From: a virus
IMG/VR virus record: IMGVR_UViG_3300046005_001098
Location: 1 to 38,999 of that record
Length of the DNA stretch: 38,999 bases
Strand: one strand, 5' to 3'
A program made the position numbers and the translations under genes. Positions 7,027 through 37,942 of the stretch are shown here, one piece after another. The notes below the pieces were generated by a model, which saw only the letters and a list, made by a program, of their open reading frames with translations, ran no database searches and was not told the DNA's origin. Each line of letters starts with the position of its first letter. Positions within the stretch are counted from its first letter, which is position 1.

Positions 7027-7079
7027 CCGCCCGCGCCACATGCTAAACAAAAGGGGCGGATGCCGAAAACACCCGCCCC
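7025..7079 (+). promoter_or_regulatory. Mutually exclusive hairpins in leader of helicase gene
   Basis: GGGGCGG at 7053-7059 can pair either with the upstream ATCCGCCC (7025-7032, extended to 7061) or with the downstream CCGCCCC (7073-7079). The two folds exclude each other, as in attenuators. On the minus strand the second hairpin is followed by TTTTGTTT and would work as a terminator. No sensor domain is recognised. Confidence 0.5.
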
Positions 7080-7113
7080 ACATCAGCGCATAACCAGCAA
7101 GGAGATCGCGCCA

Positions 7114-8541
7114 ATGCCTGACCAGAATTTACACGATGCAGGCACAGCGGGCAAGGGGCTTGCAGAGTATCGAGCGTTCATTGCCGCCCGCGCGCCCGCA
7201 ATGCAGAAATCCGGCTTTAACCCGCGCCCGATCAATGACGAGGCCAAGGCGCACCAAGTCGCCGTCCTGAACTTCGCTCTTGATCGCGGCAAGTCGGCGG
7301 CGTTTCTCGATACTGGCCTTGGCAAGTCGTTCATCGAATTGGAGTTTGCGCGCCAGTGCGCCGAAGAAACTGGCAAGCCATCCCTGATCCTGACGCCGCT
7401 TGCCGTTGCCGCCCAGATGGTGCGCGAAGGCCAAAAGTTTGGCATTGATGCGCGCCAGATCCGCGAACAGTCAGAAGTCGGTTCCGGCGTGATGGTGGCA
7501 AACTATGAGCGACTTTCCAAACTTGATCCATCGTCGTTTGGCGCTGTGATCTTGGACGAAAGCAGCATCCTGAAAAGCTACGCCAGCAAAACCCGCGTCA
7601 TGTTGCAGGATGCGTTTATCGACACACCTTACAAGCTGGCAGCAACCGCAACGCCAAGCCCGAATGACCATACCGAACTTGGCAATCATGCTGAGTTTCT
7701 CGGCATCATGCGGCAGCAGGAAATGCTGTCAAAGTGGTTTATCAATGACACCGCAACCGCGTCGCAAGAATGGAGACTGAAGGGCCATGCGGCTGGTGAC
7801 TTTTGGTCATTTGTCGCGTCATGGTCACGGTGCGCTACATTTCCTTCCGATCTTGGCGGTGATGATACTGGATACGTTTTGCCAGCTATTGATTTGCACA
7901 TGCACACGGTCGCGGCTGACCGCATGGAAAACATCGGCCAAGGCATGCTGTTTCGCATCCCAGAAATGTCAGCGACCAGCTTTCACGAGGAAAAGCGCCT
8001 GACGATCAAGCATCGGTGCGAACTGGCGGCTGAACTGGCAAGACACGATAAGCCCGTCACTGTCTGGTGCGAAACCAACGAAGAAAGCGCCATGCTTTCC
8101 AAAATGATAGACGGCGCGATTGAAGTGCGCGGCGATCTGGACGCCGACGAAAAGGAACGCCGACTGCTTGGATTTGCTGATGGTGAATATCGCGTGATGG
8201 TCACAAAGCCGAAGCTGGCTGGGTTTGGGGTGAACTGGCAGCATTGCGCCCATGCCGTGTTTGCATCGATCAGCTTTAGCTATGAGCAGCACTATCAGGC
8301 CAAGCGCCGCAGCCATCGCTTTGGTCAGTTTGAGACTGTGCGGAACGATATTGTGATCAGCGACACCGAGGCGTCAATCTGGAACATCATTAACGTCAAG
8401 TCCGACAAGCACGATGAAATGAAACGCGCTATGGCCGACGCTATGCGGTCGTTGCAGTCTGAAACATCAACCCGCGTCAAATATGACCGCCCGCTGGATT
8501 TGGCATTCCCGGCATGGATCAAATCGGAGAAATCAGCATGA
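7114..8541 (+). CDS. SNF2-like DEAD-box family ATPase/helicase, 475 aa
   Basis: A two-lobe superfamily 2 ATPase. Motif I is DTGLGKS (66-72), Ia LILTPLAV (91-98), motif II LDESS (147-151, where SNF2 enzymes usually have DEAH or DEAQ), motif III TATPSPN (178-184), and motif VI QAKRRSHRFGQ (395-405). It probably translocates on double-stranded DNA and may remodel protein-DNA complexes or assist the methyltransferase two genes later. ATG 7114 is chosen for its AAGGAG site; the frame is open from ATG 7060, which lies within the leader hairpins. A phage SNF2-type protein of this length is common in siphophages. Confidence 0.85.
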   Translation: MPDQNLHDAGTAGKGLAEYRAFIAARAPAMQKSGFNPRPINDEAKAHQVAVLNFALDRGKSAAFLDTGLGKSFIELEFARQCAEETGKPSLILTPLAVAAQMVREGQKFGIDARQIREQSEVGSGVMVANYERLSKLDPSSFGAVILDESSILKSYASKTRVMLQDAFIDTPYKLAATATPSPNDHTELGNHAEFLGIMRQQEMLSKWFINDTATASQEWRLKGHAAGDFWSFVASWSRCATFPSDLGGDDTGYVLPAIDLHMHTVAADRMENIGQGMLFRIPEMSATSFHEEKRLTIKHRCELAAELARHDKPVTVWCETNEESAMLSKMIDGAIEVRGDLDADEKERRLLGFADGEYRVMVTKPKLAGFGVNWQHCAHAVFASISFSYEQHYQAKRRSHRFGQFETVRNDIVISDTEASIWNIINVKSDKHDEMKRAMADAMRSLQSETSTRVKYDRPLDLAFPAWIKSEKSA

Positions 8542-8867
8542 AAATTGTGACAACGCAGGAACGCGCGCAATCAGCCGCCGCGCGGATTTATCATCAATAC
8601 ATGGCTTTCCCAGAAAACAGAATTCCAAGGTTTACCCATAGGGAGTGGGAAGTAAAGCATGCAAAGATAAAAGCGTTGAGCCATCCTACGCCGCAAGCTG
8701 TCACGGAGATTATGGGCGATTCGAGATGGACAGACATTCAATGCGACGCGTGCGGCTTGATGGTTGAAGCTGCGGCAGAATTTGAGGCGAGCGACTGGCC
8801 AATACTTATTTGCCACTCTTGCCTAATCGAAAATGCCAACGCTATAATTATGGAGACGACACAATGA
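8538..8867 (+). CDS. Small zinc-finger protein, 109 aa
   Basis: It is coupled by ATGA at both ends to the ATPase and the methyltransferase. The C-terminal half holds CDACG (residues about 75-78) and CHSC (about 95-98), the four ligands of a zinc ribbon. The N-terminal half is helical with many aromatic and basic residues. No family recognised. Being wedged between the two enzymes, it could be a DNA-binding partner of either one. Confidence 0.7.
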   Translation: MKIVTTQERAQSAAARIYHQYMAFPENRIPRFTHREWEVKHAKIKALSHPTPQAVTEIMGDSRWTDIQCDACGLMVEAAAEFEASDWPILICHSCLIENANAIIMETTQ

Positions 8868-9853
8868 AACAACCCGAATACCAAGGTGAAGGATGGGCGA
8901 TCCATAACTCGGACTGCATCGATGGCATGTGGGCCATGCCAGAGCAATCGGTTGATTGTTCGGTTTTCAGCCCGCCGTTTGGTGACCTTTTTGTGTATTC
9001 AGATAGCGAACGTGACCTTGGCAATGCCGGAACTGGGCAAACGTTCATCAATCAATACTCGTTTTTCGCGGAGGCTCTGACCAGAGTGATGAAGCCAGGG
9101 CGCATGACGTGCGTTCATTGCACTGATCTGCCAATGCGTAAGGGGCGCGATGGAGCGATTGGCCTGCAAGACTTCTCTGGCGATCTGATCAAGGCTCATA
9201 CCGCGGCAGGCATGATCTATCACGGGCGCGTGACGATCTGGAAAGACCCTGTAGTGGAAATGCAGCGCACCAAGGCGCTGGGCCTGCTATACAAGCAGAT
9301 CCGCAAAGATAGCACCATGAACCGCGTCGGTATGCCTGACTACATGCTGTTTTTCCGCGCGCCGGGTGACAATCCTGACCGCGTGGAGCATTGCGCACCC
9401 GGTGATGCCAAGGAAAGTGTTCGCATCGCAAAGGCATGGCTGCACGAAATGCACCGCAATGGGCTTGCATCCGCAGTTCCTTCCGATGATCAAATCGCCG
9501 CACTCCTGCCGCATGTGGAGTTTGACGTTTACGAGTGGCAAAAACTCGCGTCGCCCGTATGGATGAATATTCAGCAGGGCAACGTCCTGAACCGCATGAA
9601 AGGCGACAACGACGAGCGCCACGTCTGCCCGCTGCAATTGGACACAATCGAGAACTGCCTGCGCCTCTACAGCAAACCCGGCGACGTGGTTATGGACCCG
9701 TTCAATGGCATCGGATCAACGGGCTATCAGGCGGTCAAGATGTTTCGGCGCTATCTCGGGTTCGAGTTGAAGCCGGAATACGCCAAGCAGGCCGACAAGA
9801 ACCTGAAAGAAGCCGAGGCATCTGTGGGTGATCTTTTCGCAGGTGCCGCATGA
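8864..9853 (+). CDS. DNA N4/N6 methyltransferase, beta-class order, 329 aa
   Basis: It transfers methyl groups from S-adenosylmethionine to exocyclic amino groups. The catalytic motif IV comes first (SPPF, 36-39) and the SAM-binding motif I is near the C-terminus (DPFNGIGSTG, 278-287), the beta-class order. SPPF is typical of N4-cytosine but also occurs in some N6-adenine enzymes, so the base is open. The middle segment (residues about 80-260) should hold the target recognition domain. The likely role is protection of phage DNA from restriction. The C-terminus contains VGDLF. Confidence 0.88.
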   Translation: MKQPEYQGEGWAIHNSDCIDGMWAMPEQSVDCSVFSPPFGDLFVYSDSERDLGNAGTGQTFINQYSFFAEALTRVMKPGRMTCVHCTDLPMRKGRDGAIGLQDFSGDLIKAHTAAGMIYHGRVTIWKDPVVEMQRTKALGLLYKQIRKDSTMNRVGMPDYMLFFRAPGDNPDRVEHCAPGDAKESVRIAKAWLHEMHRNGLASAVPSDDQIAALLPHVEFDVYEWQKLASPVWMNIQQGNVLNRMKGDNDERHVCPLQLDTIENCLRLYSKPGDVVMDPFNGIGSTGYQAVKMFRRYLGFELKPEYAKQADKNLKEAEASVGDLFAGAA

Positions 9854-35591: not shown

Positions 35592-35606
35592 CATTCTGGA
35601 GATGTG

Positions 35607-36470
35607 ATGCAAAAGCTACGCGTCCTTGATCTATTCAGCGGTATAGGCGGGTTCTCGCTTGGACTTGAACGAACTGGAGGGTTCGAAACTGTCGCATTCT
35701 GCGAGATTGAACCGTTTCCCCGCCGTGTATTGGCGAAACATTGGCCGGAGGTGCATTGCTATGAAGATGTCAGAACACTCACAGCAGACGTTTTGGAACG
35801 AGACGGAATTGCCGTTGATGTCATCACTGGAGGGTTCCCGTGCCAAGACCTCAGCACTGCTGGAAAGCAGCGCGGAATGGGCGAAGGGACGCGGTCAGGT
35901 CTCTGGTCTGAAATCGTCCGTCTGGTTGGCGAGTTACGACCACAATTCGTCATCGTGGAGAACGTCGCAGCATTGCTTGCTGGCCCAAGCGAACGGCGAG
36001 GCGGATGGTTTGGCAGAGTTCTCGGAGACTTGGCCGAATGCGGGTATGATGCAGAATGGCAAAACATACCAGCTGCGGCCCTGGGCGCTCCTCACCTTAG
36101 AGAACGGGCGTGGATTATTGCATACCCCACGCAAGAACGACAGCCAGAAACGGGGAAATTTCAATGCGGAAGAATTGCGAAATGGCTTCCCTGCGGCGGT
36201 GAAACGTTTGTTTCTTCCTACAATCGGGAAGTCGGAGCCGAAGGGTGCGAGCCGCAAGAGGTATCTGGGTTCGGATCATTTTCGTGGTGCCAAAATGTCG
36301 GAAGGGTTGAGGACTTGCGAGGACGATCCGACATACCTACACCCCTCTTTCGCGGAAGCCGTGATGGGGTTCCCGATTGGGTGGACAGAGTTGGGGCCTG
36401 TGGAAACGCCGTAATTCCGCAAATACCTGAATTGATTGGCCACGCCATTCTTAAGTCATTAGGGCGATAA
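35607..36470 (+). CDS. DNA cytosine-C5 methyltransferase (Dcm family), 287 aa
   Basis: ATG 35607 has GGAG 5 bases upstream; GTG 35604 is an alternative. All main motifs are present: I FSGIGGFSLGLE (10-21), IV GFPCQDLS with catalytic Cys79, VI ENV (118-120), VIII RERAWIIA (165-172), and IX/X GNAVIPQIPELIGHAI near the C-terminus. The target recognition part (about 175-255) is short. It likely protects phage DNA. A second 217-codon frame lies wholly inside it (35761-36414). No promoter is clear; read-through from the repressor is blocked by the terminator. Confidence 0.92.
   Translation: MQKLRVLDLFSGIGGFSLGLERTGGFETVAFCEIEPFPRRVLAKHWPEVHCYEDVRTLTADVLERDGIAVDVITGGFPCQDLSTAGKQRGMGEGTRSGLWSEIVRLVGELRPQFVIVENVAALLAGPSERRGGWFGRVLGDLAECGYDAEWQNIPAAALGAPHLRERAWIIAYPTQERQPETGKFQCGRIAKWLPCGGETFVSSYNREVGAEGCEPQEVSGFGSFSWCQNVGRVEDLRGRSDIPTPLFRGSRDGVPDWVDRVGACGNAVIPQIPELIGHAILKSLGR
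35761..36414 (+). CDS. Nested +1-frame protein inside C5 methyltransferase gene, 217 aa
   Basis: The frame is +1 to the methyltransferase and open for about 250 codons; ATG 35761 is chosen because GGAGG lies 9 bases upstream. The product looks genuine: SEHSQQTFWNETELPLMSSL at the start, ETWPNAGMMQNGKTYQLRPW (about 89-108), a TP-rich middle, and LHPSFAEAVMGFPIGWTEL near the C-terminus. From memory, phage proteins found beside C5 methyltransferases share the ETWPxxGMM and HPxFxExxMGFPxGWT motifs. Its role may be DNA recognition or control of the methyltransferase. Dual coding needs proof. Confidence 0.6.
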   Translation: MKMSEHSQQTFWNETELPLMSSLEGSRAKTSALLESSAEWAKGRGQVSGLKSSVWLASYDHNSSSWRTSQHCLLAQANGEADGLAEFSETWPNAGMMQNGKTYQLRPWALLTLENGRGLLHTPRKNDSQKRGNFNAEELRNGFPAAVKRLFLPTIGKSEPKGASRKRYLGSDHFRGAKMSEGLRTCEDDPTYLHPSFAEAVMGFPIGWTELGPVETP

Positions 36471-37211: not shown

Positions 37212-37619
37212 TTATGTGAAGTCCAGAACATCATAGCCCACTGCTTCCGATAGCTCGGCCATAGCCTTGTCGAAATACGTGCGAAACTCCGGCTGCGTCA
37301 TTGCGCCAAACGCGGTGCTGTGCGGCATCATCCCCGTGACATTGCCGCGCAGGTCATAGATCGGCTCCACAAGCCCCATCCGAACCTTTAGCGCCGTGTG
37401 TAGCGCCTCACGCGATTGCCAGCGTCCTGTAGCCTCTACAGCGCGCGTTAGGGCCTGCCAGTATAGGCGGTGATGCGGAAGGCTACGCTTGTTACGCGGC
37501 TTTAAGTCAAACTCTGTGCCGTTTGGATATGCCGCCAATTCTTCGGCGTCGAAAGCGGTGACTGGCAAGAGTTTACCACCCGCCAGCTTGACCATAGGTG
37601 TAGGCGCTTTGTCTTTCAA
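37212..37619 (-). CDS. DUF1367-like phage protein, 135 aa
   Basis: Central phrases RNKRSLPHHRLYWQALTRAV, TGRWQSREALHTALKVRMG and a C-terminal YFDKAMAELSEAVGYDVLDF follow the DUF1367 pattern of phage nin-region proteins, which lie near recombination genes in lambdoid phages. Its biochemical role is unknown. ATG 37619 overlaps the Lar-like stop by ATGA. Confidence 0.65.
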   Translation of the reverse strand: MKDKAPTPMVKLAGGKLLPVTAFDAEELAAYPNGTEFDLKPRNKRSLPHHRLYWQALTRAVEATGRWQSREALHTALKVRMGLVEPIYDLRGNVTGMMPHSTAFGAMTQPEFRTYFDKAMAELSEAVGYDVLDFT

Positions 37620-37942
37620 TTTGCGCCTTTCTCAATCTCGGCCAGCACGGCGCGGGCGGTGTCAGCAGAACCGAGAATAATCCCCAATTCACTCTCGGTA
37701 TTCTCGGCAAAGCGCAGCAACCCACGCAACGCCTCCACCGCCTTCGCCAGCTTGCGCTCGGCGGCGTCGTGCAGGTCGGCGCGGGTGTTCCATGCGGTGA
37801 TGGCTTCGGCGTCTGTGGTATATTCCTTTGAAACTAGCACAACGCACTTTCCCATGCAGGCAACCCATGCTGTGCGGGCAATGGAAGCGCGCCAAATTTC
37901 TGACGCACCGCCACAAAACGGGCAGGGTTTCAGCGCGGTCAT
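37616..37942 (-). CDS. Lar-like restriction alleviation protein, 108 aa
   Basis: Residues 1-53 match the Lar family: LKPCPFCGG (two Cys), a CMGKC pair, and TTDAEAITAWNTRAD. Lar proteins of lambdoid prophages reduce host type I restriction. The C-terminal half (KAVEALRGLLRFAENTESEL, ARAVLAEIEKG) is not part of Lar and repeats the tail of the protein at 33785-34198. It works in the same defence direction as the two methyltransferases. Confidence 0.78.
   Translation of the reverse strand: MTALKPCPFCGGASEIWRASIARTAWVACMGKCVVLVSKEYTTDAEAITAWNTRADLHDAAERKLAKAVEALRGLLRFAENTESELGIILGSADTARAVLAEIEKGAN

Follow-up and report, generated by a model that had tools for sequence, protein, structure and literature searches.

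The closest described systems are two C5-cytosine methyltransferases that are each made of two polypeptides: M.EcoHK31I, which belongs to an E. coli restriction-modification system and recognizes YGGCCR, and M.AquI, which recognizes CYCGRG. In work by Lee, Kam and Shaw in 1995, the beta gene of EcoHK31I was reportedly placed in an alternative frame inside the alpha gene, with both products being needed in vitro. To our knowledge, only a few such two-frame methyltransferases have been described, and we are aware of few long same-strand overlaps in bacteria and their phages for which it has been established that both proteins matter. The larger subunit of M.EcoHK31I contains motifs I-VIII and X and the smaller one motif IX, while in M.AquI motifs I-VIII reside in one chain and motifs IX and X in the second; in the review that describes these motif arrangements, the predicted target-recognition domain of EcoHK31I is assigned to the large subunit (PMC3404938). 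The locus studied here is a C5 methyltransferase gene at positions 35604-36470 of the window, i.e., of the whole stretch of viral DNA that was analyzed (38,999 nt; IMG/VR record IMGVR_UViG_3300046005_001098). As judged from its sequence and from that of its relatives, it very probably encodes in two overlapping frames the two subunits, alpha and beta, of one C5-cytosine methyltransferase built like M.EcoHK31I.

The frame 0 product, alpha (35604..36470; this and all other features of the locus are on the plus strand), is 288 amino acids long. It starts from GTG 35604 or, more likely, from ATG 35607, the latter being better placed behind a GGAG (35598-35601), and its stop is at 36470. Residues 6-179 match Pfam PF00145 (E 4.2e-41), the protein matches phrog_363 (E 7.5e-78), and the alpha family profile matches M.HhaI over motifs I-VIII (E 1.7e-36). 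The motifs by which a C5 methyltransferase is recognized are all present in alpha: motif I (DLFSGIGG, 35628..35651), motif IV with the PCQ and its catalytic Cys (GGFPCQD, 35829..35849), motif VI (ENV, 35958..35966) and motif VIII (RER, 36099..36107). In the alignment used to place them (A2), G76, F77, P78 and C79 of motif IV, E118 and N119 of motif VI, and R165 and R167 of motif VIII are invariant. Motif X (GNAVIPQIPELIG, 36402..36440) is also in frame 0, mostly past the beta stop, with G266 and N267 invariant. The linker between motifs VIII and X (36129..36362) appears to be mostly a passive reading of the beta DNA; no IX-like segment was found in it, and motif IX sits in the +1 frame. An earlier note on this DNA had the methyltransferase frame keep all of its catalytic motifs, a claim that has to be amended, as frame 0 contains motif X and the nested frame motif IX. 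Since it has no motif IX, we classify alpha as a single subunit rather than a complete enzyme. The PF00145 match on alpha ends at profile position 166 of 324, and the same endpoint was observed in single-chain controls; because these are also left unmarked over the IX-X part, the silence of Pfam on this part of alpha carries little weight.

The +1 frame within the methyltransferase gene is open from 35659 to 36414 (251 codons), and a GGAGG (35747..35751) lies 9 bases before an ATG at 35761, from which a protein of 217 amino acids, beta (35761..36414), would be translated. The earlier note had already pointed out the GGAGG and an open frame of about 250 codons, and the motifs it quoted, ETWPNAGMM and HPSFAEAVMGFPIGWTEL, do occur in beta. 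In relatives in which alpha has a Glu at the position that forms the GAGG, its codon is GAG in 32 of 32 cases, Glu codons across these genes being GAG in 39% (730) and GAA in 61% (1145), and in 30 of the 32 a +1 ATG follows the conserved GAG. If the loci were independent, the probability of 32/32 would be near 1e-13; as they are related, this value is a guide only. The best reading of these data is that beta is predicted to start from a conserved ribosome-binding site of its own. Searches of both translations against protein families, as suggested in the earlier note, yielded, in addition to the PF00145 and phrog_363 matches of alpha, a match of beta to phrog_1008 (E 6.2e-16); homologues of beta were found in 145 phage records. 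Neither Pfam nor NCBIfam contained a family for beta, and a PDB sequence search with the nested-family profile returned nothing meaningful (the best match, a glycolipid transfer protein with an E of 0.3, being due to chance). AlphaFold modeling of beta alone gave a pLDDT of 58 and a pTM of 0.28; such a poor model is compatible with an obligate partner, but demonstrates nothing.

The probable content of beta emerges from single-chain relatives of the enzyme, which include a Tsukamurella plasmid enzyme (L194) and many actinophage enzymes (among L199-L230). In these single-chain actinophage and actinobacterial proteins, motifs VIII and X are separated by an in-frame segment of the form LPTP...EWMMGWPxGW, and it is to this segment that the C-terminal half of beta (LLHTPRKND...LHPSFAEAVMGFPIGWTEL, 36115..36411) corresponds. 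Single-chain enzymes match positions 130-233 of the nested profile, many of them with an E of about 1e-8 to 1e-10. Of 25 beta proteins, the reciprocal, single-chain profile recovered 14 at E<=10; no alpha protein and not one of 500 shuffled sequences reached this threshold. The beta of 35761..36414 was itself below the reach of this profile at E<=10 and close relatives of it were found; it is therefore linked to the single-chain segment through its family. In the PDB, a profile built from the IX-X segment of single-chain enzymes picks up C5 methyltransferases, the best being of the DRM type (E 4.9e-4), with EWMMGWPxGW aligned on the IX-like LGFP segment and GNGVV on motif X. The model of one single-chain enzyme (L226) superimposes on M.HhaI from end to end (Z 17.9, rmsd 6.0 over 226 residues), its target-recognition part being of low confidence. 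In the beta studied here, motif IX is assigned to residues 193-208 (LHPSFAEAVMGFPIGW, 36337..36384). Taken together, these comparisons indicate that beta comprises the predicted target-recognition region and motif IX and that frame 0 provides the rest, so that alpha would be incomplete alone. The suggestion that the shared part of the two genes covers target recognition thus agrees with the reading of this region in the C-terminal half of beta, and in frame in the single-chain enzymes. The enzyme-plus-partner system envisaged in the same note is close to the alpha/beta pair of M.EcoHK31I; the partner, however, since it carries target recognition and motif IX, seems to be more than a companion, resembling a part that the enzyme would otherwise lack.

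According to the two-subunit explanation, alpha would be the catalytic domain, with the SAM-binding motif I, the catalytic PCQ of motif IV, the ENV of motif VI, motif VIII and the C-terminal motif X, and beta, whose translation would be initiated within the alpha gene, at ATG 35761 and with a GGAGG of its own, would bring target recognition and motif IX. We infer that beta would dock on alpha and complete the DNA-binding small domain, that both chains would be needed for the complex to then methylate a specific sequence, and that the phage would use the enzyme to mark its own DNA against host restriction. The order of the parts in the DNA is colinear with that of a single-chain enzyme, and natural single-chain forms exist; it could thus be imagined that a programmed +1 frameshift after motif VIII generates a single chain of motifs I-VIII, target recognition and motif IX. 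We regard this as improbable, as the product would be without the frame 0 motif X, the junction contains no stop in frame 0, a conserved Shine-Dalgarno sequence and ATG are available to beta itself, and the N-terminal half of beta, opposite motifs II-VIII, is conserved as well. Slightly less probable still is a scenario in which beta has a separate function, such as that of a regulator or a counter-defence factor, and simply shares DNA with the methyltransferase. A short linker and motif X are also found in alpha, which might therefore act alone, and some weak constraint on this linker is left in close relatives, but it is beta that carries motif IX and the VIII-X segment of the single-chain enzymes, alpha being without both, and among the loci retrieved the nested family was essentially never found away from a methyltransferase.

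Any frame that overlaps a conserved gene out of register may appear conserved at no cost of its own, and a null model was therefore built: in each of 25 loci, synonymous codons were permuted 300 times without altering the alpha protein or its codon usage. In its score against the nested family, the +1 product exceeded all 300 permutations in 25 out of 25 loci (z 6.5-14), and no stops were observed in the +1 frame compared to 2-8 expected. At the 35604-36470 locus, the permutations averaged 5.9 stops in the nested interval (the minimum among the 300 being 2) versus none in the real sequence, and a leave-out family profile gave beta 293 bits, versus 87 +/- 16 (maximum 136) for the permutations. 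The motif IX region scored 19-53 bits versus about 0 and was above all permutations in 24 of the 25 loci (in the remaining one, L005, P was 0.03); for the motif IX of the locus studied here, the family test gave 51 versus -2 +/- 8 bits. The N-terminal half of beta, tested as a segment slightly longer than 35761..36114, scored 150 versus 65 +/- 10 bits. In the reverse test, in which the beta protein was kept, the alpha motifs were found to be equally real; in distant relatives the alpha linker barely exceeded the null, and in close ones it displayed some weak constraint. These data show each of the two frames to be genuine and conserved coding sequence.

Differences among five close relatives were also counted for each frame 0 codon position. 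Third positions differed at 0.61 where alpha alone is encoded. Opposite the N-terminal half of beta (35761..36114, facing alpha motifs II-VIII), positions 1, 2 and 3 differed at 0.19, 0.12 and 0.41, and in the linker between VIII and X, opposite the C-terminal half, at 0.34, 0.12 and 0.09; the frame 0 first positions, which reach this 0.34, are the third positions of the nested frame. The substitution pattern from VIII to X is that of the nested frame, and beta is under purifying selection. The leading frame therefore switches from 0 (motifs I-VIII) to +1 (for approximately 80 codons) and to 0 again (motif X). In the same relatives, the amino acid difference in the alpha linker was 0.39 compared to 0.12-0.26 elsewhere in alpha. 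The N-terminal half of beta, over which the alpha frame is dominant, is constrained beyond the null and yet variable: it evolves fast (a difference of 0.44 in the same set), and it harbors most of the 29 changes in a Salmonella-phage/E. coli pair. The comparison of codon-position patterns in both frames, proposed in the earlier note, thus finds the nested frame conserved and leading between VIII and X, and the note's idea of two real proteins sharing about 650 bases is upheld by the conserved family, the permutation null and the purifying selection; of the outcomes it had listed as speaking against that idea (no homologues, or an unconserved nested frame with frequent stops), neither occurred. 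That the nested frame is a shadow, open and seemingly conserved merely through the conserved methyltransferase protein, is refuted by the permutation, region and substitution results given above (all 300 permutations exceeded in every locus, no stops, a nested-frame pattern in the linker), even though the shadow effect is real, permuted +1 products averaging 30-99 bits against the nested profile and single-chain relatives showing a +1 ghost of the beta N-terminal half, and presents a pitfall, as frame-shifted similarity to a conserved gene can alone approach 100 bits.

A search for the nested family in phage records, IMG/VR and a genome set of 84,980 species yielded 193 loci, from phages and many bacterial phyla; in 188 of these a C5 methyltransferase gene contains the nested frame in its +1 register, with an overlap of roughly 500-900 bases. 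As the query was the nested frame, 188/193 expresses how closely the nested family keeps to the overlap, and not the share of methyltransferases that have one. Several of the five remaining loci resemble frame-swapping insertions or deletions, and the E. coli collection contained only four related loci. In the fetched records, mostly one of the two frames was annotated. From these matches, the two-frame layout thus appears to have a wide distribution among phages and bacteria and to be under-annotated, and the specificity-determining half of many phage methyltransferases would be absent from the records. In this one recurrent overlap (188 loci), the two frames would encode complementary parts of one enzyme.

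Several individual loci displayed features of their own. In L019, L038 and L186 a single open frame runs from the N-terminal part of alpha into the C-terminal part of beta, and L019 has the converse as well; these frame swaps are such as an indel would leave, and may be real or assembly errors. In a Streptomyces plasmid (L195:1200-2270) the LPTP part is in the +1 frame and motif IX in frame 0, and the point of the frame switch therefore differs from that at 35604-36470. Five matches of equal score (L131-L135) originate from one Roseovarius metagenome-assembled chromosome, and equal-score matches were likewise obtained from Lihuaxuella thermophila (L163, L165 and L166). The E. coli PCP07014 copy (L232:601-1362) is annotated as a pseudogene, both of its frames being interrupted by a stop at roughly the same point. 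In the window itself, a gene for a Lar-like restriction-alleviation protein (37616-37942, minus strand; phrog_599, E 3.9e-12) lies on the opposite strand, within a few genes of the methyltransferase, and a second methyltransferase-like gene (8810-9850, plus strand; phrog_67, E 1.2e-40), which also matched a helicase family, is directly preceded by a DNA helicase gene (7060-8538).

One possible explanation for the coexistence of these forms, which we put forward tentatively, is that the target-recognition/IX segment is a cassette that moves between frames, the single-chain, interleaved and split forms being states of one family; because both frames stay open, single indels could interconvert these states. 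If this is true, the interleaved state would be ancient and common in phages, with frames 0 and +1 each leading over different parts.

No papers on phage methyltransferase overlaps were found in the open-access literature searched, nor any mention of how broadly the arrangement is distributed, of a leading frame that switches along the gene, or of one family containing single-chain, interleaved and AquI-like forms, REBASE and most subscription papers lying outside this search. The phrog_1008 label is DNA methyltransferase, with no specific function and no mention of an overlap. The single-chain enzymes (L194, L199 and L226) share with the present locus the catalytic motifs, the LPTP...EWMMGWPxGW module and the order of the parts in the DNA, and differ from it in that a single frame encodes every part as one chain. 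As in M.AquI, motifs I-VIII are in one chain and motif IX is in another; an assignment to the M.AquI type, in which the second chain has both IX and X, was nevertheless rejected, as motif X stays here in alpha, in frame 0. An AquI-like appearance, with motif X in the +1 frame, was seen in the loci of mycobacteriophage TiroTheta9 and of Brevibacillus (L007 and L129). Unlike EcoHK31I, which is part of a restriction-modification system, no partner nuclease was recognized among the neighbors examined, and the target-recognition region, placed by the review in the alpha subunit of EcoHK31I, is read here in beta. The small-subunit gene lies in another frame inside the large-subunit gene, as it reportedly also does in EcoHK31I, and, as in M.EcoHK31I (compared by description only), the larger chain has motifs I-VIII and X and the smaller one motif IX. 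The locus is a new member of a kind already known, that of the EcoHK31I and AquI two-polypeptide C5 methyltransferases.
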